From Sphingobacteriaceae bacterium (GTDB lineage: Bacteria > Bacteroidota > Bacteroidia > B-17B0 > Aurantibacillaceae), in assembly GCA_947480015.1 (NCBI GenBank), contig CANKBS010000029.1, positions 1 through 49,331 on the forward strand: a stretch of DNA of 49,331 bases, in the 5' to 3' direction. The position numbers were made by a program, and so were the translations under genes. How positions within the stretch are numbered: position 1 is the stretch's first letter; the number at the start of each line of letters is the position of its first letter. The notes below the pieces were generated by a model that did no database searches, was not told where the DNA came from, and saw only the letters and a list, made by a program, of their open reading frames with translations. This document shows positions 1 to 6,990 of this stretch, in pieces.

Positions 1-2
1 CA

Positions 3-80
3 AGGACTGGCTCCATTAAAGAGCCAAAGCCCGCAGTTGGAAATAATTTGACGACTGGTGAAAAACAACAAAAAAATTAA
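3..80 (+). CDS. Possible C-terminal tail of an upstream gene (partial)
   Basis: Frame 3 is open from the window edge to a TAA at 78-80 and gives a 25-residue tail rich in Lys, Gln, Asn and Pro. It ends 33 bases before the toxin gene. The stretch is too short to assign a family and may be chance, but a short unstructured polar tail is typical of a real protein end. Nothing else is visible in the first 113 bases. Confidence 0.25.
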   Translation, partial: RTGSIKEPKPAVGNNLTTGEKQQKN

Positions 81-113
81 CTAATTTTAAAATGAAAATG
101 TCCTTAGTTATTT

Positions 114-476
114 ATGCATAAAAGTTCAGATTGGTTTGACGACATACATACAGATAAGAAATTCGAAAAGCAGGTTAACGATGACCGAAAGTTGGTAAAG
201 GAGTTTGGCAAACTTCGTGCAGAGAAGATCACTGCAAGGCTTGCTCAACTGCGTTTCGCAACCACGCTTGAAGAAGTGAGAAACTTACCTGGCAACTTTC
301 ATGAACTTAAATATAATCGCAAGGGGCAATGGGGCTGTGACTTAGATCAGCCATATAGGCTGGTTTTTACACCACATGAAAGACCTATTCCCACCGGTGA
401 GCAAGGTCAATATATTTGGACTGAAATCCGAGGGGTAGAAGTTATAGAAGTAATAAACTATCACAAAGAAAAGTAG
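114..476 (+). CDS. higB: HigB/RelE-type toxin of a type II toxin-antitoxin module
   Basis: The 120-residue protein has the size and layout of the HigB branch of the RelE superfamily: a helical basic N-terminal half (Lys-Glu-Phe-Gly repeats, about 20-60), then a strand-rich half with Leu-Lys-Tyr-Asn at about 65-68, Tyr-Arg-Leu-Val-Phe at about 81-85 and a C-terminal strand with Val-Ile-Glu-Val. Known members cleave ribosome-bound mRNA. The antitoxin gene begins 2 bases after the stop codon, so toxin-first order, as usual for hig modules, is seen directly. Whether this copy is active is inference. The start at 114 is the first ATG after the A/T-rich leader. No clear TAnnTTTG promoter was found. 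Confidence 0.8.
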   Translation: MHKSSDWFDDIHTDKKFEKQVNDDRKLVKEFGKLRAEKITARLAQLRFATTLEEVRNLPGNFHELKYNRKGQWGCDLDQPYRLVFTPHERPIPTGEQGQYIWTEIRGVEVIEVINYHKEK

Positions 477-478
477 TC

Positions 479-1567
479 ATGGCAAAACAGAACCAATATT
501 TTCCACAGACAGTTCCACATCCGGGTAAAACCCTGGAGGAAAAATTGAACGAAATGGAAATGGGCCCAAAGGAGTTTGCACTTCGTACAGGGAAACCTGA
601 AAAAACAATTATTGCAGTTCTTAAAGGCGAAAGCTCAATCACACCTGATATGGCTGTGCAGTTTGAGAGTGTCACTAAAATACCGGCTAACTTTTGGATG
701 AACCATCAAAGGGGGTATGACGAATATCTTGCTAGAGAAAAACGTCAAGCTGTAATCGAAGAATCTGTTACTTGGGCGAAGAAATTTCCACTAGGAGATA
801 TGATTAAAAAAGAGTGGTTGCCGAAAGTATCAACCATTCAAGAAAAAACACAAGAGATGTTAGTTTTCTTTGGTTTTTCCAATCATACCGCATGGGAAGA
901 TTATTATTTCAAACAACAATTAAAAGTAGCTTTTCGTATTTCATTAGCTCAAACTAAGGAACCGTATGCAATATCTGCTTGGCTGCGCAAAGGGGAGCTA
1001 CAAGCCTCCGAGTTAGATGCAGAAGAGTATTCAGAAAATAAATTTAAAGATGCACTACCAGAATTGAAAACCATCATGGCGAAGCATCCAAAGGATTTTT
1101 TTAATCAGTTACAAAAAATATGTTTGGAGGCCGGGGTTAAAGTAGTACATACACCATGTATAAATAAAGCTCCTATCAGCGGTTCTACTCGTTGGTTAAA
1201 TGATACTCCTTTTATTCAACTTACTGGTAGGTACAATAGAAACGATAGTTTTTGGTTCACTTTTTTTCATGAGGCAGGCCACATCTTATTACACGGAAAA
1301 AAAGATATTTTCTTAGAAAAGGTAGATTACTCCGATAAAGACCTCATAAAAGAAAGAGAAGCAGATCGGTTTGCCGTGAAGTGGACACTGAGCGAAGAAG
1401 AGGAAGAAGAAATAGTTTCAACAACACTTCTCACTGATGCACATGTACGTCATTTCGCAAAAAAATTCGATACTCATCCTGCTATAATTATTGGGAGGTT
1501 GCAGCACAAAAAGCTTATACCATATACATTGGGTAGGGATTATTTTGAGCCGGTGGTTTTTGAATAA
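479..1567 (+). CDS. higA: HigA-type antitoxin fused to an ImmA/IrrE-like zinc peptidase
   Basis: The 362-residue protein has two parts. Residues about 10-75 form a HigA-type XRE helix-turn-helix (phrases such as GPKEFALRTGKPEKT and PANFW are typical). Residues about 210-320 form an ImmA/IrrE metallopeptidase with the zinc motif HEAGH at about 264-268 and a downstream Glu in EREADRFA that would supply the third ligand. Classical HigA is about 100 residues, so this is the long fused version. The N-terminal part should bind DNA and the toxin; the protease part may regulate antitoxin level, by analogy with ImmA acting on ImmR. It is translationally coupled to the toxin (2-base gap). The neighbouring reverse transcriptase suggests a defence island. 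Confidence 0.82.
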   Translation: MAKQNQYFPQTVPHPGKTLEEKLNEMEMGPKEFALRTGKPEKTIIAVLKGESSITPDMAVQFESVTKIPANFWMNHQRGYDEYLAREKRQAVIEESVTWAKKFPLGDMIKKEWLPKVSTIQEKTQEMLVFFGFSNHTAWEDYYFKQQLKVAFRISLAQTKEPYAISAWLRKGELQASELDAEEYSENKFKDALPELKTIMAKHPKDFFNQLQKICLEAGVKVVHTPCINKAPISGSTRWLNDTPFIQLTGRYNRNDSFWFTFFHEAGHILLHGKKDIFLEKVDYSDKDLIKEREADRFAVKWTLSEEEEEEIVSTTLLTDAHVRHFAKKFDTHPAIIIGRLQHKKLIPYTLGRDYFEPVVFE

Positions 1568-2130
1568 AAGGCTTCAAAAATGTTATTTCTAGCTAATTAA
1601 AGTTGAGTTCCTCAAAACCCTTGATGAGTGGCATAAATCAACGGATTAGGCCTAAAATCTGCAATTAGACCTTGTGAATGCTGTCATTTTGGCGTAAATT
1701 TTCTTTGGAATGAAACTTGTTAGAAGTTAAACGCCCTTAGAAACGTCTAAGGGGTTGAATGTTTAAGTTTATTGTTCGCAGGTAAAGTTGCAATAACTGT
1801 GCCAGCATTGTCAGACCATCTGACAGTTCTATCAATTTACACCCTGTAATCAAATATAAGAAGATTACGAGTAATTTGATGGTGAATTTAGAAGCTTTCA
1901 TAACATTTATATTGTTAAAAAGACCTCTTGGGTTTTTACTCAAAATGTCCGAGCAGAAAAGGGTTGATGATTTTTTGCAAGGTTCCAAGGCAACAAAGGC
2001 GGTTCAGTCTAACCGTTGGTAATCTTGGATAGGTTGCGATTAAATTCGCAATGTGAAATGCCACAATAACCGTTAATTCAGTTTTGATTGGCTAAGGGTG
2101 GATTTAGACTTGTACGGGTGCAAATCCCAA
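1568..2130. other. Gene-free leader with many short hairpins upstream of the reverse transcriptase
   Basis: No convincing gene lies here. By eye the stretch holds several perfect short inverted repeats: 1734-1741/1746-1753 (8 bp, 4-base loop), 1809-1815/1819-1825 (7 bp, 3-base loop), 1849-1855/1874-1880 (7 bp), 2000-2004/2011-2015 (5 bp) and 2034-2039/2046-2051 (6 bp, 6-base loop). A minus-strand open frame at 1737-1988 contains an inner Met at 1901 followed by a lipoprotein-like hydrophobic stretch ending in Cys. It resembles no family I know and is probably chance. The hairpins could belong to a long non-coding RNA tied to the reverse transcriptase. Confidence 0.45.
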
Positions 2131-2217
2131 AATGATTGAGGCAATCATTAGTTGACCAACGGAAAACGTTGTGCATTAGCCGGAAAAGTTAAGACTGATT
2201 ATGCTTTCCGGCTAATG
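2131..2217 (+). ncRNA. Candidate structured RNA just upstream of the reverse transcriptase
   Basis: Three hairpins sit back to back, ending 14 bases before the ATG of the reverse transcriptase: 2131-2138/2142-2149 (8 bp, 3-base loop), 2157-2161/2167-2171 (5 bp, 5-base loop) and 2174-2186/2205-2217 (13 bp perfect, 18-base loop). Seen directly: the pairing. Established knowledge: retrons and several defence-associated reverse transcriptases (for example DRT2 and DRT9) use a non-coding RNA encoded just beside the enzyme gene as template or scaffold. Inference: this leader plays that role. It lacks the domain V signature of a group II intron, as far as can be seen. The RNA ends are not known and it may extend upstream to about 1730. 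Confidence 0.45.
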
Positions 2218-2231
2218 TCCCAATAAAAGTG

Positions 2232-3830
2232 ATGCATAAAGACTCTCTCTATACTGATGAAATATGGAATCGCTTTTCAGAAAAATTTGGCTCTTCGGCC
2301 GAGGACTTCGAGCTAAAAACTTACCCACAATTTGACCCATATTTTAATTTTCCGGAAAATAAAATAGTACTTCAGCAACTTCTTAAAGATGAGAAACTAT
2401 TAGGCGTAGCCCAACATCCTTTTCTGCCATTTGTAAAAATCCTAACGAAGACCCCTCGTTATAGATGGCAAGAGGATGATGGCGAATACATGCTTGAAAC
2501 CAAAATCCGACCTATTGCGTTTGCTTCACATTTTGATACTTATATTTATGCGTATTATTCATTCGCTCTAACTTTAAAGTATCAAGAGTATATCCGTAAA
2601 CATGAGTTTCAAGATTGCGTCTTAGCGTATCGCAGTGATTTAGATGGCAAGTGTAACATTCAATTTGCCAAAGAAGTTTTTGATGCAATAAAAAATAAAA
2701 TCAAGAATAAAAAGTCATGCAGTGTTATTGCTTTGGATATAACCGGCTATTTTGATAATATCGATCATGGTAAGTTAAAAGAAAAATGGTGCAAGATTCT
2801 AAATTTGCCTGAATTGCCAGTTGATCAATATAAAGTCTTTCGTTCTTTAACCAATTACGCATACGTTAATAAGGATAGCATTTTAAGGCATTTTAATATT
2901 GATTTGAAGCAACTTAAAAAAGAAGATATAAGATGGCAAACATTACTTGATCTTATTCCTGATGAAATTGCTGGACCAACTTTTAAGCAAAAATTTAAAC
3001 TACTGAAGGAACGTAAATTGATAATGACAAATATGCCTAAGAAGCATAAAGGAATACTGCAGCATAAAGGTATTCCGCAAGGTTCAGCAATGAGCGCTTT
3101 ACTATCAAACATTTACTTAATTGATTTTGATAAATGGCTTTGGGATCTGAGCCAAAAACTTGATTTTACGTATAAAAGATATTGTGATGATCTAATTGTG
3201 ATTTGTGATACTGATCTGGTGGATGAAATAAACAGAAAGATACTTGCAGAAATTTCTAACTACAAACTAACCATTCAAGAAAAGAAAACAGAACTAATTG
3301 AGTTTTTACCCAATTCTAAAGGCAAAATAAGGGCATTCAATAGAAGGGAAATAATAAAATATGGTAGCAAAATTAATGCGAGCAATGAACAAAAATTTTA
3401 TAAAAATCTTCAGTACTTGGGCTTCGAATTTAATGGTCAAAACGTTTATATTAGACCCGGCAGCTTATCTCGCTATTTTCGTAAAATGAAGGGGCGAATC
3501 ATTAAAACTGTGATGATGTCCTATAGTGATAAATCAGGCTTTAACAAAATTAAGCGCAGGCAAATTTATTTCCGCTATTCTCATTTTGGTACTCGTAATT
3601 TTATTACTTACGCAAAGAACGCGGCCAAAGAGTTTTACAAAAATGGTGAGGGTTTACTGAGGTCTGGCATGAATTCATCTAGTATAAAACGACAGATTGC
3701 CTCACATGTAGATATTATAGAGAAGGAAATACGTTCAAAGAGCAATCAAAGGTTCGATCATAAAGAGTATGTTAGGAAGAAAAAAAAGGAGGTTGGTAAG
3801 CGACAGAAGTACATTCCCCTAAAAAAATGA
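2232..3830 (+). CDS. Reverse transcriptase of the UG/defence-associated (DRT-like) type
   Basis: The 532-residue protein carries a complete reverse transcriptase core. Motif 0/1 is around RPIAFASH (93-100), motif A is LDITGYFDNIDH (catalytic Asp about 169), motif B is GIPQGSAMSALLSN (280-293), motif C is YCDD (317-320) and motif E is LQYLGFEF (393-400). The N-terminus has TYPQFDPYF (30-38) and LAYRS (131-135), a pattern I associate with the unknown-group (UG) or DRT enzymes. About 130 residues after motif E form a basic helical tail. Retron VTG, DGR-type motif B (SQ) and a maturase X/HNH domain are not visible. A GTG three bases upstream (2229) is an alternative start. A structured leader precedes it and a small gene follows by 75 bases. 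The exact DRT class is not assigned. Confidence 0.85.
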   Translation: MHKDSLYTDEIWNRFSEKFGSSAEDFELKTYPQFDPYFNFPENKIVLQQLLKDEKLLGVAQHPFLPFVKILTKTPRYRWQEDDGEYMLETKIRPIAFASHFDTYIYAYYSFALTLKYQEYIRKHEFQDCVLAYRSDLDGKCNIQFAKEVFDAIKNKIKNKKSCSVIALDITGYFDNIDHGKLKEKWCKILNLPELPVDQYKVFRSLTNYAYVNKDSILRHFNIDLKQLKKEDIRWQTLLDLIPDEIAGPTFKQKFKLLKERKLIMTNMPKKHKGILQHKGIPQGSAMSALLSNIYLIDFDKWLWDLSQKLDFTYKRYCDDLIVICDTDLVDEINRKILAEISNYKLTIQEKKTELIEFLPNSKGKIRAFNRREIIKYGSKINASNEQKFYKNLQYLGFEFNGQNVYIRPGSLSRYFRKMKGRIIKTVMMSYSDKSGFNKIKRRQIYFRYSHFGTRNFITYAKNAAKEFYKNGEGLLRSGMNSSSIKRQIASHVDIIEKEIRSKSNQRFDHKEYVRKKKKEVGKRQKYIPLKK

Positions 3831-3905
3831 CAGATATTACTGTATTAAGGTCGGTGGGATAAAATTTTATGGGTTTTGTTTTTTATTATACTATTTAAAT
3901 GAAAA

Positions 3906-4148
3906 ATGAAAACATCAAATTTAAGACAAGCGGTCCGTAAACTAATGTTTGAAGAACTAAAAAGAATCGAAACTACAGTTCATGCCGCCATTGAGCGGGA
4001 TGAAAACAAGAGCCCACATGAAGGAGGCTCTGGACAAATCCAAATTGAGTCAAACTCAGAATCATTTCGCAGTAAGATCACTGCCGACATTATCAAGTCG
4101 CTTATAAGGGACCTTAACAGAGAAGAAGATGAGTATTCAAAGAGTTAA
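3906..4148 (+). CDS. Small charged protein downstream of the reverse transcriptase, unknown
   Basis: An 80-residue ORF in the same direction as the reverse transcriptase, starting 75 bases after its stop. It is hydrophilic and likely helical at both ends (residues 1-30 and 55-80), with a Gly/Ser-rich middle, and has no signal peptide or membrane segment. The helical, Arg/Lys/Glu-rich ends might bind nucleic acid or a partner protein. I recognise no family. The A/T-rich upstream region (ending ctatttaaatgaaaa) could hold its own promoter. Its link to the reverse transcriptase rests on position alone. Confidence 0.5.
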   Translation: MKTSNLRQAVRKLMFEELKRIETTVHAAIERDENKSPHEGGSGQIQIESNSESFRSKITADIIKSLIRDLNREEDEYSKS

Positions 4149-4521
4149 AGTTAAATAGGAGGAGTTTATTAAATCTTCAATAGCTGATATCTTAAACAGT
4201 TTTGTGGATAGTAAGCCTAATACTTTTAATGTCCCTAGCACATCAGGCATATTACTGATAATTAATCTATTAGACCATCTTCGTCCTCTTTTAGTTCATC
4301 ATAAAACAATGCAAGTGTGAGACAGTCTGCATAAAACTCGTTCGATATTGGTTCAGTCAGGGCTACTTTTACAGAGCGGAGAATGAGCAACAGAGCGTGG
4401 ACAGAGTGTAGAATGAGATACAGAACGGAGAAGTAGAGTTTGTGTTTAAAATTTTTGAATGACAGCTTGAAATAGTTTAATCCAAGGCCTTGCCATTTGA
4501 ATTCTAACAAATCAACGCCCC
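4149..4521. other. Low-information stretch with a degenerate 30-bp tandem repeat
   Basis: No convincing gene. A minus-strand frame (4262-4510, 82 codons) ends in an acidic tail (Asp-Glu-Leu-Lys-Glu-Asp-Glu-Asp) that looks protein-like, but its hydrophobic middle overlaps a DNA repeat, so it may be a remnant. The repeat is two copies of a 30-base unit at 4371-4400 and 4401-4430, each beginning acagag and sharing 23 of 30 bases by my count. A half-unit also recurs at 4390 and 4420. Confidence 0.4.
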
Positions 4522-4914
4522 CTAAAACATAAAAAAGTAAAAGAATATGATCACCTGCATTCTGCGTAAACCATCTGCTTTGCCAATTTGATGACCTGAG
4601 CCGTCATACACATAATCCCCATCCAGTTTCCCGATCTGTTTGCCATTAGCGCTGTATAAATAATTGCCATCCAATTTTCCCACGTGATGTCCCGAACCAT
4701 CATACAAGTAATTGCCGTCTAACTTCCCGATCTGGTGACCGCTTCCATCATAAATATAATTACCATCCACCTTTCCGATCTGATGTCCCGAACCATCGTA
4801 ATAATAGTTCCCGTCAACTTTGCCTATCTGATGACCCGAACCATCATACATGTATTGAGCCCTGGCTAGGCCAAATGAAAGACACAGGAGGGAGATCAGA
4901 ATCTTTAATTTCAT
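4522..4914 (-). CDS. Secreted tandem-repeat protein (beta-flower-like repeats)
   Basis: The 130-residue protein starts with a signal peptide (about 1-19, ending Ala-Arg-Ala-Gln) and is then six copies of a 16-residue unit of the type YDGSGHQIGKVDGNYx (about 21-115). It ends in a short aromatic tail (IIFFYFFMF). The fifth copy is the most divergent (SANGKQ in place of DGSGHQ). The repeat alternates a Gly/Asp turn with a short strand, like 4-fold beta-flower or similar small beta-repeat proteins. Function is unknown. The 48-bp DNA unit is nearly identical between copies, so copy number could vary by recombination. It lies 51 bases downstream of the M1 peptidase gene on the same strand and might share its transcript. 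Confidence 0.75.
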   Translation of the reverse strand: MKLKILISLLCLSFGLARAQYMYDGSGHQIGKVDGNYYYDGSGHQIGKVDGNYIYDGSGHQIGKLDGNYLYDGSGHHVGKLDGNYLYSANGKQIGKLDGDYVYDGSGHQIGKADGLRRMQVIIFFYFFMF

Positions 4915-4965
4915 GTTGTCAATCCAATAAAGTAATTTTAAAAATCAGAAAATTAAAAACAGAAT

Positions 4966-6990
4966 CTATTGCTTGATTATTTTTTGTGAATACTGCGTAT
5001 GACCTTCTGCATCGCTTACACGAATCATATAGACACCCGAAGCAAAAGCACTCAGATCAAAACTTGTTTGTACTTCCAGTTTTTTATCAAGCACTACTTT
5101 TCCGTTTATATCGGTCATTTGTACTTTGCCGGGGGCATTGAAAGGATTCTGAATATTAAGCAGACCTTTGCATGGATTTGGTCCAATGCTGATACCATTA
5201 TATTTTGTGGCCAGTTCTTCAATACCATTGGTGTTGGGTGGGGTAACCACCGGACGAATACCTAAGGTAGCATCGCGGGCCGGACCAACGGTTTTATTAA
5301 TGATCCAGTTATTCGGATCGCAAACAACAGCCGTGATGGTACCGGTTAAACAAAAGGAATAATTTTCTACGGCATTGTTTTGAATTAACCGCACCGTGGT
5401 GTCGGCTTTACCGGCTCTGCTGATCTTGTATTCAAGCGGAGTAATAAACAAAGGTGTTACCGAAGGCATACTCACAGTTTCGCTGGTCTGAATAAAACAG
5501 GTGTCGCGATCAAAATTATATTTCACATTAAAAGTGGGGTAACCTTCTCCGTAATACCACTGATTAAAAAACTGTGTGGCATTAATACCGCTTTGTACCT
5601 GATAAAAGTTTTTAAAATCAACCGCGCTGGCCGTGCTGTTTTTATAAGTGTTCTGGAAATTGCGCAAACAATTAAACCAAACCGAATCGTTATTGGTTAA
5701 AAATTGTAAGCTTCTAATAATAGCGCCGCCTTTATCATAGGTTAAACGTGAACTAAAAATACGTGATGCATTCATGGTATCGGCATTGGTAAAAAATACC
5801 GAACCTCCGGGCTGACTCATCACACTGTTATGAGCGGAGTTGAGGTTAGGCATAAAATTAGGCGGATCTAAATACTGCGCCACCAAATGTTCGGTATACG
5901 AAGCAAAACCTTCGTTCATCCAAATATCGCCCCAGGTTTTACAAGTCACATTATCACCCCACCATTGGTGACCAAGTTCATGCGCATCTACATAATAATC
6001 AAAAAAACCAATGCTGGTCATGGTTTGATGCTCCATGCCGCCTCCAAAAGGAGCCATACAATGACCGTATTTTTCTTTGTAAAAAGGATACATGCCATAC
6101 ATTTTGCTTTCAAACTCTAATACCTGTGGCATTTTATTTAAGGTTACTTTTTGACCTGTGATCCAGCTGGCATTATTAAAAGCCCCATCGTAAATATAAT
6201 TCTGAATTAAAATAGAATCGTTGGGAAGATACATAGGCTTGGCATATAAATTATATTCCTTGTACTTGGCCACGGCCACCGAAATGAGGTAATAATCAAT
6301 GGGCGTGCGCGATTTCCACTCATAACGTTTTTTACTTCCCACCGTTACCACATTTTTTAATAAGCCATTAGAGCCGGCTTTGTTCAAAGAATCAGTAGTA
6401 ATAAATACCCAACTCGAATCTATTTTATCGGTGAGCATTTGTTTGCAGGGCCACCAGTGGTAGGCAACCAAACTTTCGCTTAAACTCCAGGTCGCCTGAT
6501 TGCCCCAGGCTCCTGAGGTAGCATTGCTAAAACCCGAGCCAATGGCCGAACCACCAACCGGTGGATTGCCTTTATAATAAACGATGGTGGTAAAACTTGT
6601 TCCTGTTGTTAAAGCCGGATTCACCCTTACCTTTACCATACTATCTTGACGTATAAATGGTTTATTTACGCCATTTACATAAATGGAATCAATGGTGTGA
6701 TTCTGATGTAAGAGGGTTTGAAAGGTATCTAAAACTGCAGCCGTTACCTTGGCAACGGTTTTCACATTGCCGCTAATGTATTTATTGATGCGCTCCACAT
6801 TCACATTTAAATGCACAAACTTTACGTCGTATTTTATTTCGTGTACGATTTGTGGACTCAACGCTGAGGTTTTGGCCTGTTGGTTAAAGTAAGCCCCCAT
6901 AGAACCTTGTTTGGCTTTGGCGCAGGCATGTTCTTGTGCTGTTAAAAGTGTCGACACAAAAAGAAATAGGAGAATGCTGATTTTTTTCAT
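4966..6990 (-). CDS. Secreted M1-family metallo-aminopeptidase with T9SS sorting domain
   Basis: The 674-residue protein has a signal peptide (1-18), an M1 N-terminal beta domain, and the catalytic domain with the substrate motif GGGMEHQ (about 315-321) and zinc motif HELGHQWWG (about 337-345), followed by NEGFA some 20 residues later for the third zinc ligand. The final about 80 residues (NPCKGLLNI, then GVYMIRV near the end) are a T9SS type A sorting domain, so the enzyme is expected to cross the outer membrane and be released or anchored at the surface. M1 enzymes remove N-terminal residues from peptides. The 141-base gap to hemE contains the divergent promoters. All key residues are present. 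Confidence 0.93.
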   Translation of the reverse strand: MKKISILLFLFVSTLLTAQEHACAKAKQGSMGAYFNQQAKTSALSPQIVHEIKYDVKFVHLNVNVERINKYISGNVKTVAKVTAAVLDTFQTLLHQNHTIDSIYVNGVNKPFIRQDSMVKVRVNPALTTGTSFTTIVYYKGNPPVGGSAIGSGFSNATSGAWGNQATWSLSESLVAYHWWPCKQMLTDKIDSSWVFITTDSLNKAGSNGLLKNVVTVGSKKRYEWKSRTPIDYYLISVAVAKYKEYNLYAKPMYLPNDSILIQNYIYDGAFNNASWITGQKVTLNKMPQVLEFESKMYGMYPFYKEKYGHCMAPFGGGMEHQTMTSIGFFDYYVDAHELGHQWWGDNVTCKTWGDIWMNEGFASYTEHLVAQYLDPPNFMPNLNSAHNSVMSQPGGSVFFTNADTMNASRIFSSRLTYDKGGAIIRSLQFLTNNDSVWFNCLRNFQNTYKNSTASAVDFKNFYQVQSGINATQFFNQWYYGEGYPTFNVKYNFDRDTCFIQTSETVSMPSVTPLFITPLEYKISRAGKADTTVRLIQNNAVENYSFCLTGTITAVVCDPNNWIINKTVGPARDATLGIRPVVTPPNTNGIEELATKYNGISIGPNPCKGLLNIQNPFNAPGKVQMTDINGKVVLDKKLEVQTSFDLSAFASGVYMIRVSDAEGHTQYSQKIIKQ

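Follow-up and report, generated by a model that had tools for sequence, protein, structure and literature searches.

The window, by which we mean the whole stretch of 49,331 nucleotides analyzed here, most likely carries an anti-phage system of the DRT2 type, from a Bacteroidota clade, in which a leader RNA is copied into tandem repeats encoding a stop-free Neo protein. The DRT2 identity, the RNA structure, the template limits and the open frame are supported by sequence, tree, covariation and predicted fold. The RNA binding, phage trigger, priming, jumping, second strand, transcription, toxicity and defence we infer from the work on Klebsiella DRT2.

In the Klebsiella system, the template lies between two ACA motifs, has a length divisible by 3 and, when its reverse complement is concatenated, contains an open frame; the RNA is pseudoknotted (PMC12039810). 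According to the available text of the two source papers, phage infection triggers the RT-RNA complex to copy the template repeatedly with template jumping, the repeats become double-stranded and transcription at the junctions yields the toxic Neo (PMC12039810, PMC11100668).

The reverse transcriptase is a DRT2 of a Bacteroidota clade

2232 to 3830, plus strand: DRT2 (UG2) reverse transcriptase, 532 aa (PADLOC, NCBIfam, PDB 9c0i, tree)

The open reading frame has its ATG at 2232 and an in-frame GTG at 2229. A preliminary description of this DNA had recognized a complete reverse transcriptase (RT) core, which we confirm with D169, GIPQGS at residues 280-285 and the YCDD active site at residues 317-320; D169, G280-S285 and Y317-D320 show no variation across the 22 aligned members of the clade defined below. 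The PADLOC Drt2 profile scores 434.1 bits (E=2e-130), compared to 91.3 bits for the best non-Drt2 family. All 22 members match the NCBIfam Drt2 model (NF041746) at 1e-10, with the window's RT at 389.5 bits against a cut-off of 390, so that naming by the cut-off only would narrowly miss Drt2 by 0.5 bit. The nearest solved sequence is Klebsiella DRT2 (PDB 9c0i, E 8.5e-60). A structure model built on the 22 clade sequences (mean pLDDT 85) aligns to 9c0i_A over 417 of 425 residues with Z 31.3 and rmsd 3.3, while the runner-up entry reaches Z 21.2 and the DRT9 structure Z 17.4, far below. Scores stay well under the cut-offs of the retron profile retron_St85_RT (47 bits, cut-off 235) and the group II intron maturase profile TIGR04416 (68.9 bits, cut-off 300). 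RVT_1 has one match in the window's genome.

Scanning genome contigs with an 8-sequence alignment gave at least 531 relatives, of which the best 80 were kept. Nineteen of these 80 (L026-L044) show 39-63 % identity, and two further close members (L106 and L108) came from 348 genomes of Flavobacterium, the genus of L026. The window and these 21 loci, 22 in all, are defined as clade A; its 19 named loci are all Bacteroidota. In a quick tree of 96 proteins chosen out of 109 extracted, 89 DRT2 rows separate from 7 non-DRT2 RTs (97*), an outgroup with long branches. Twenty of the 22 clade A members sit on one starred branch (96), L043 and L044 attach weakly (59), and 18 loci with Klebsiella-type ACA templates form a separate group (98). 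Among viral contigs, 100 pattern matches included no relative, and the matches in plasmid (29) and phage (3) records were all below 60 % identity.

Across the 348 Flavobacterium genomes, 36 carry DRT2-like RTs at 1e-30, mostly 32-38 % identical to the window's RT and in groups other than clade A.

The RT is therefore a DRT2 by sequence profiles, tree and predicted fold, and belongs to a Bacteroidota group apart from the Klebsiella type. The preliminary description had correctly seen a UG/DRT-class enzyme that is neither a retron nor a group II intron RT, as family scores, the best structural match and the tree placement it had recommended now bear out. Its further claim of an uncharacterized system does not stand, since sequence, tree and predicted fold all indicate DRT2, the mechanism of which is published (PMC12039810, PMC11100668).

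The leader encodes a conserved structured RNA

1731 to 2228, plus strand: DRT2-type non-coding RNA of about 500 nt, ends inferred from conservation (leader alignments, covariation)
1734 to 1753, plus strand: 5' handle hairpin, 8 bp in the window, immediately 5' of the template (weak consensus support)
1914 to 2228, plus strand: 3' scaffold, 10 helices, 315 nt (covariation)
1924 to 1927, plus strand: CCUC, 5' strand of a proposed pseudoknot with GAGG (2138-2141) in the loop of hairpin 1
2132 to 2148, plus strand: hairpin 1, its loop in the proposed pseudoknot (fold, covariation)
2157 to 2171, plus strand: hairpin 2 (fold, covariation)
2173 to 2218, plus strand: hairpin 3, a stem of 13 Watson-Crick pairs with one outer G-U (fold, covariation)

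Three back-to-back hairpins had been noticed ahead of the RT gene, one with a perfect 13-bp stem ending 14 bases before the start codon. All three are present, and the 13 Watson-Crick pairs of hairpin 3 do end at 2217, 14 bases before the ATG. The region 2129-2231 folds at -33.3 kcal/mol; 200 dinucleotide shuffles average -17.0 (sd 2.9), and none of them is as good (z -5.6). The leader is larger than was described, about 500 nt of RNA, and these hairpins make up just its 3' end. Conserved blocks run from the 5' hairpin through a TCCCATTAAAA-like end directly before the RT in alignments of 9 and 11 leaders.

The 3' scaffold, a structure of 61 pairs in 10 helices drawn from the window's sequence, has 87.5 % of cells paired across 11 members and both-side changes at 39 of the 61 pairs. 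No shuffle out of 500 was as high on pairing or on double changes, and slid versions of the structure pair 32-46 %. RNAalifold, unaided, predicts 50 pairs, 35 with both-side changes. Hairpins 1, 2 and 3 correspond to helices 8, 9 and 10, for which 80, 82 and 95 % of cells are paired in the 11 aligned members and both-side changes affect 2/6, 2/5 and 11/14 pairs. Covariation in the leaders of homologues, which the preliminary description had suggested looking for, is thus strong in the 3' scaffold and extends to the three hairpins. The 5' hairpin is weakly supported, with 4 of 6 predicted pairs showing both-side changes in alignment A3.

RNAalifold also gave a hint that bases after the second GUU pair with the loop of hairpin 1. 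The resulting CCUC/GAGG helix has 93 % of cells paired, a value reached by none of 500 shuffles; its 3 double-change pairs are equalled or beaten by 124 of the 500. We propose, by pairing counts, that the 3' scaffold is pseudoknotted. Very likely the leader RNA is both scaffold and template. The leader had been described as template or scaffold, and for the hairpins it is the scaffold role that covariation supports; the template is predicted upstream of them, at 1761-1913.

A covariance model of the 3' core, with the window in its training set, has a single match in the window's own genome. Outside the training set it finds 8 of 11 clade members at E <=1 and 4 of 11 at <=0.01, all at the expected place, plus a chance match in the window (E 0.83). 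It matches none of 36 loci of other DRT2 clades, so RNA homology between clades is not established by this model. Rfam has no match in positions 1-6000 of the window at E <=1, none in L026 at E <=0.1 and none at gathering score among the remaining 20 clade A leaders.

A predicted template carries a hidden antisense frame

1761 to 1913, minus strand: predicted template, 153 nt, its reverse strand a 51-aa Neo unit that is stop-free through the junction
1761 to 1763, plus strand: GUU-1, proposed jump motif and first template bases (role of ACA-1)
1914 to 1916, plus strand: GUU-2, where the cDNA end is proposed to land (counterpart of ACA-2)

By analogy with the ACA rule, we searched for the template as a variable stretch bounded on either side by the same short motif. 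Klebsiella-type ACA motifs at both template ends are absent from the window; GTT at 1761 and 1914 flanks a variable stretch about 220-370 nt upstream of the three hairpins. With these limits, the length is divisible by 3 and antisense frame 0 is open through the junction in 20 of 22 clade A members, which are related sequences rather than independent trials. This count comprises 8 of 9 leaders in the first alignment, 10 of 11 in the second, where motifs were chosen before lengths were computed, and both L106 and L108, which were fetched later and used as a held-out test. Passing templates measure 141-171 nt. L044 fails at 154 nt, and L042 fails with the aligned limits (148-149 nt), passing at 129 nt only with a post hoc TTTAAA motif.

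The end motifs of the 20 members compared are GTT/GTT in 17, ATT/ATT in L037 (a matched change at both ends), the mismatched GTT/GCT in L043 and, in one, a TTT/TTT set afterwards. A scan that uses no motif, and asks only for a length divisible by 3 and a frame open through the junction, returns window positions 1756-1920 in at least 10 of 11 leaders. It finds nothing on the sense strand at 9 or more of the 11 leaders and nothing in 5 column permutations. In a second set, from which L044 had been excluded beforehand, the scan gives 165 nt in 10/10 leaders and, for the sense strand, at most 63 nt, at 8/10 only. For 13 Klebsiella-type leaders, selected for fitting the ACA rule, it gives 123 nt in 13/13 (the published unit is 120) and 72 nt at 12/13 on the sense strand. 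The published ACA rule together with the split sigma70 promoter (at least 10/12 letters) was recovered in 18 of 61 further loci.

One alternative is a DRT2 that copies repeatedly but whose cDNA is itself the effector, with no encoded Neo, as in DRT9. To our knowledge, no protein is encoded by the cDNAs of DRT9 and DRT10. These class 2 UG RTs use an ncRNA to make repetitive cDNA, as the present one is predicted to do, and in the available text of PMC12632851 they act via that cDNA. The poor conservation of Neo, with 20 units only 14-43 % identical to that of the window, fits such a scenario as well. It gives no reason, however, for lengths divisible by 3 and an open junction frame in 20 of 22 members, and we regard it as improbable.

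Slightly less probable again is a cDNA of another extent, with the antisense frame belonging to an ordinary small gene or arising as a side effect of RNA structure. In its favor, dinucleotide shuffling of single templates leaves frame 0 open in 0.8-7 % of cases (L106 and L108 excluded), and in L040 the frame is open 150 nt past one template end. But frame and length hold together across units of 141-171 nt, the column permutations give nothing, and stops occur at varying distances outside the template, 19 of 20 members having one within 150 nt past one end and 16 of 20 past the opposite end. A decayed, inactive DRT2 is very unlikely: the RT frame and catalytic residues are intact, the scaffold helices are kept and the Neo frame is open. 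The original view of a system of unknown kind with the hairpins as template, to which an RNA lacking an Rfam family and an RT 0.5 bit under the Drt2 cut-off lend something, is barely credible when profiles, tree and fold all indicate DRT2, the covariation of the hairpins is that of a scaffold and the frame signal sits upstream of them. A DRT2 with an encoded Neo is the reading we consider most likely.

The substitution pattern was tried as a coding test for the Neo frame and rejected, being mixed across pairs. Among six frames, pN/pS is lowest in the Neo frame for window/L026 (0.58) and L035/L036 (0.65); for L026/L106 the Neo frame stands at 0.55 versus 0.52 in another antisense frame, and for window/L106 it ties at 0.77. 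AlphaFold2 models the 51-aa Neo unit as two helices (pLDDT 72, pTM 0.43).

Promoter candidates at the junction and ahead of the RNA

1768 to 1794 (approximate), minus strand: candidate Bacteroidota promoter at the Neo unit's end, reading TTG, 19 nt, TAAACTTA
1682 to 1720, plus strand: candidate ncRNA promoter region, with a TGNCA-N3-TGNCA repeat at 1682-1694 and a sigma54-like TGG..TTG at 1706-1720

The primary promoter of Bacteroidota is TTTG / TAnnTTTG, according to the available text of two papers (PMC6847099, PMC9723704). Scores of single sequences against such a promoter average 6.5 compared to 5.9 for shuffles and are mostly not significant; we therefore used an offset profile across members. 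Over 130 offsets in 21 clade members (L044 excluded), the best mean match starts 10 nt before the junction with z 4.4, a signal to which the conserved jump region contributes. The window's own best offset is -11. The layout in clade A is TTG, about 20 nt, TA(A/C)CTT(T/A)A, the junction and then an in-frame ATG, found at +9 or +12 in 18 of 22 members; an out-of-frame ATG at +7 precedes the in-frame +12 in 8 of 22. We consider this a candidate junction promoter of the Bacteroidota type.

Upstream of the ncRNA, 12 of 22 clade A members have the TGNCA-N3-TGNCA repeat with 7 or more of its 8 letters. A TGGCA..TTG element with sigma54 spacing scores at least 10.5 of 22 in 15 of 22 members and lies 54-57 nt from GTT-1 in 13 members. 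Of the 15 good matches, 13 lack the C that usually follows the -12 G. A single rpoN-type match occurs in the window's genome. From these sequence elements, the clade A ncRNA may be regulated.

Other Bacteroidota DRT2 groups

A second Bacteroidota DRT2 group, clade B, was scanned through 12 leaders (L110-L114, L117, L118, L120, L078, L099, L100 and L104). An antisense stop-free interval of about 150 nt occurs in 12/12, and conserved TATCTTTG-like and TTTG-like elements lie on opposite sides of the likely junction. Limits set by an ATACC motif give a length divisible by 3 in 8/12. The promoter profile, for which 8 of the 12 sequences were used and the other four dropped, has its best offset 8 nt past the junction (z 4.0); the -33 element precedes the junction.

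A third group, clade C (L119, L121, L122, L123 and L125), has a leader of another kind, in which CAATGACTCAG..GGGTAC is conserved. Its antisense frame is open in 5/5 over 144 nt, and the sense strand is open as well, over 84 nt.

Neighboring genes

Positions 114-1567 of the window encode a candidate toxin resembling HigB, with a Pfam score under the cut-off. It is followed by a HigA-type protein that carries an M78 peptidase domain and also matches PADLOC PD-Lambda-2_B at 1e-35. Judged by sequence, this pair is possibly a second defence or toxin-antitoxin unit beside DRT2. The HigB/HigA-like genes and an 80-aa ORF at 3906 were rejected as parts of the system, having no tblastn match at 1e-3 in the 21 clade loci, which extend a few kb either side in a search that shows no positive control. 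On the minus strand at 4522-4914 is a gene for a 130-aa secreted-looking protein made of 24-aa repeats of the YDGSGHQIGK type; a tandem repeat at 4658-4848, with 48-bp half units, lies within it.

Comparison with known systems and proposed mechanism

The likeness to Klebsiella DRT2 (KpnDRT2) covers the RT, alike in family and fold (417 residues aligned at Z 31.3), an upstream ncRNA made of a 5' hairpin, template and pseudoknotted scaffold, a template between two short identical motifs with a length divisible by 3, an antisense frame that is free of stops and has an ATG close to the junction, and a helical Neo prediction. Antiparallel helices are likewise predicted for Neo in the available text of Tang et al. 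(PMC11100668). The differences are in the parts. The RNA is about 500 nt compared to 280 in Klebsiella DRT2, the unit 153 nt compared to 120, the jump motif GUU rather than ACA, and the candidate promoter one of Bacteroidota type just before the junction, where Klebsiella DRT2 has a junction-split sigma70 promoter. The scaffold of 315 nt is unlike the Klebsiella-type RT-12 (RF03016), which matches the 3' part of the Klebsiella-type leader L063 at 69.6 bits and L066 at 36.7 bits, under the gathering score of 44.2, and is not matched by the window, L026 or 20 other clade A leaders. The Neo sequence aligned to no published Neo in this analysis. The system is of a known kind, but its sequence points to an RNA without an Rfam family and to changes in jump motif and unit length, and probably to a promoter that also differs from the Klebsiella type.

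By analogy with Klebsiella DRT2, the RT would bind the RNA of about 500 nt via its pseudoknotted 3' scaffold and, upon phage infection, copy positions 1761-1913. At GUU-1, the nascent cDNA end (AAC) would re-pair with GUU-2 and copying would restart. The tandem-repeat cDNA would then become double-stranded, each junction placing a promoter from the tail of one unit ahead of the ATG that starts the next. The junction transcript would encode a stop-free Neo of 51-aa two-helix repeats, leading to cell arrest.

Among the papers on DRT2 and Neo that were listed, titles and abstract beginnings include no description of the clade A RNA or Neo, and the available portion of a 2025 DRT2 structure paper has no mention of "Bacteroid" (PMC12596737). 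In the available text of Tang et al., ncRNAs are said to be predictable in divergent DRT2 clades, with Neo annotation more challenging and other mechanisms raised as possible (PMC11100668). Clade A is one such divergent clade, now with a proposed template, jump motif and Neo and with held-out support. The Neo question in divergent clades thereby becomes directly testable, and the motif-free scan provides a way to look for such hidden genes.

These results suggest that what is conserved is the logic, namely two short identical motifs, a length divisible by 3 and a junction promoter, and that motif, promoter, RNA and Neo sequence change while this logic persists. We tentatively extend this to a conjecture that could well prove wrong: the DRT2 hidden-gene trick may have been rebuilt around Bacteroidota transcription, with a new RNA family, a GUU jump, a TTTG/TAnnTTTG junction promoter and at least two clades with different layouts (beside the junction in A, split in B), the clade A ncRNA being maybe inducible via the sigma54-like promoter and upstream repeat. 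If the ncRNA is inducible in this way, the template RNA would be made on demand.
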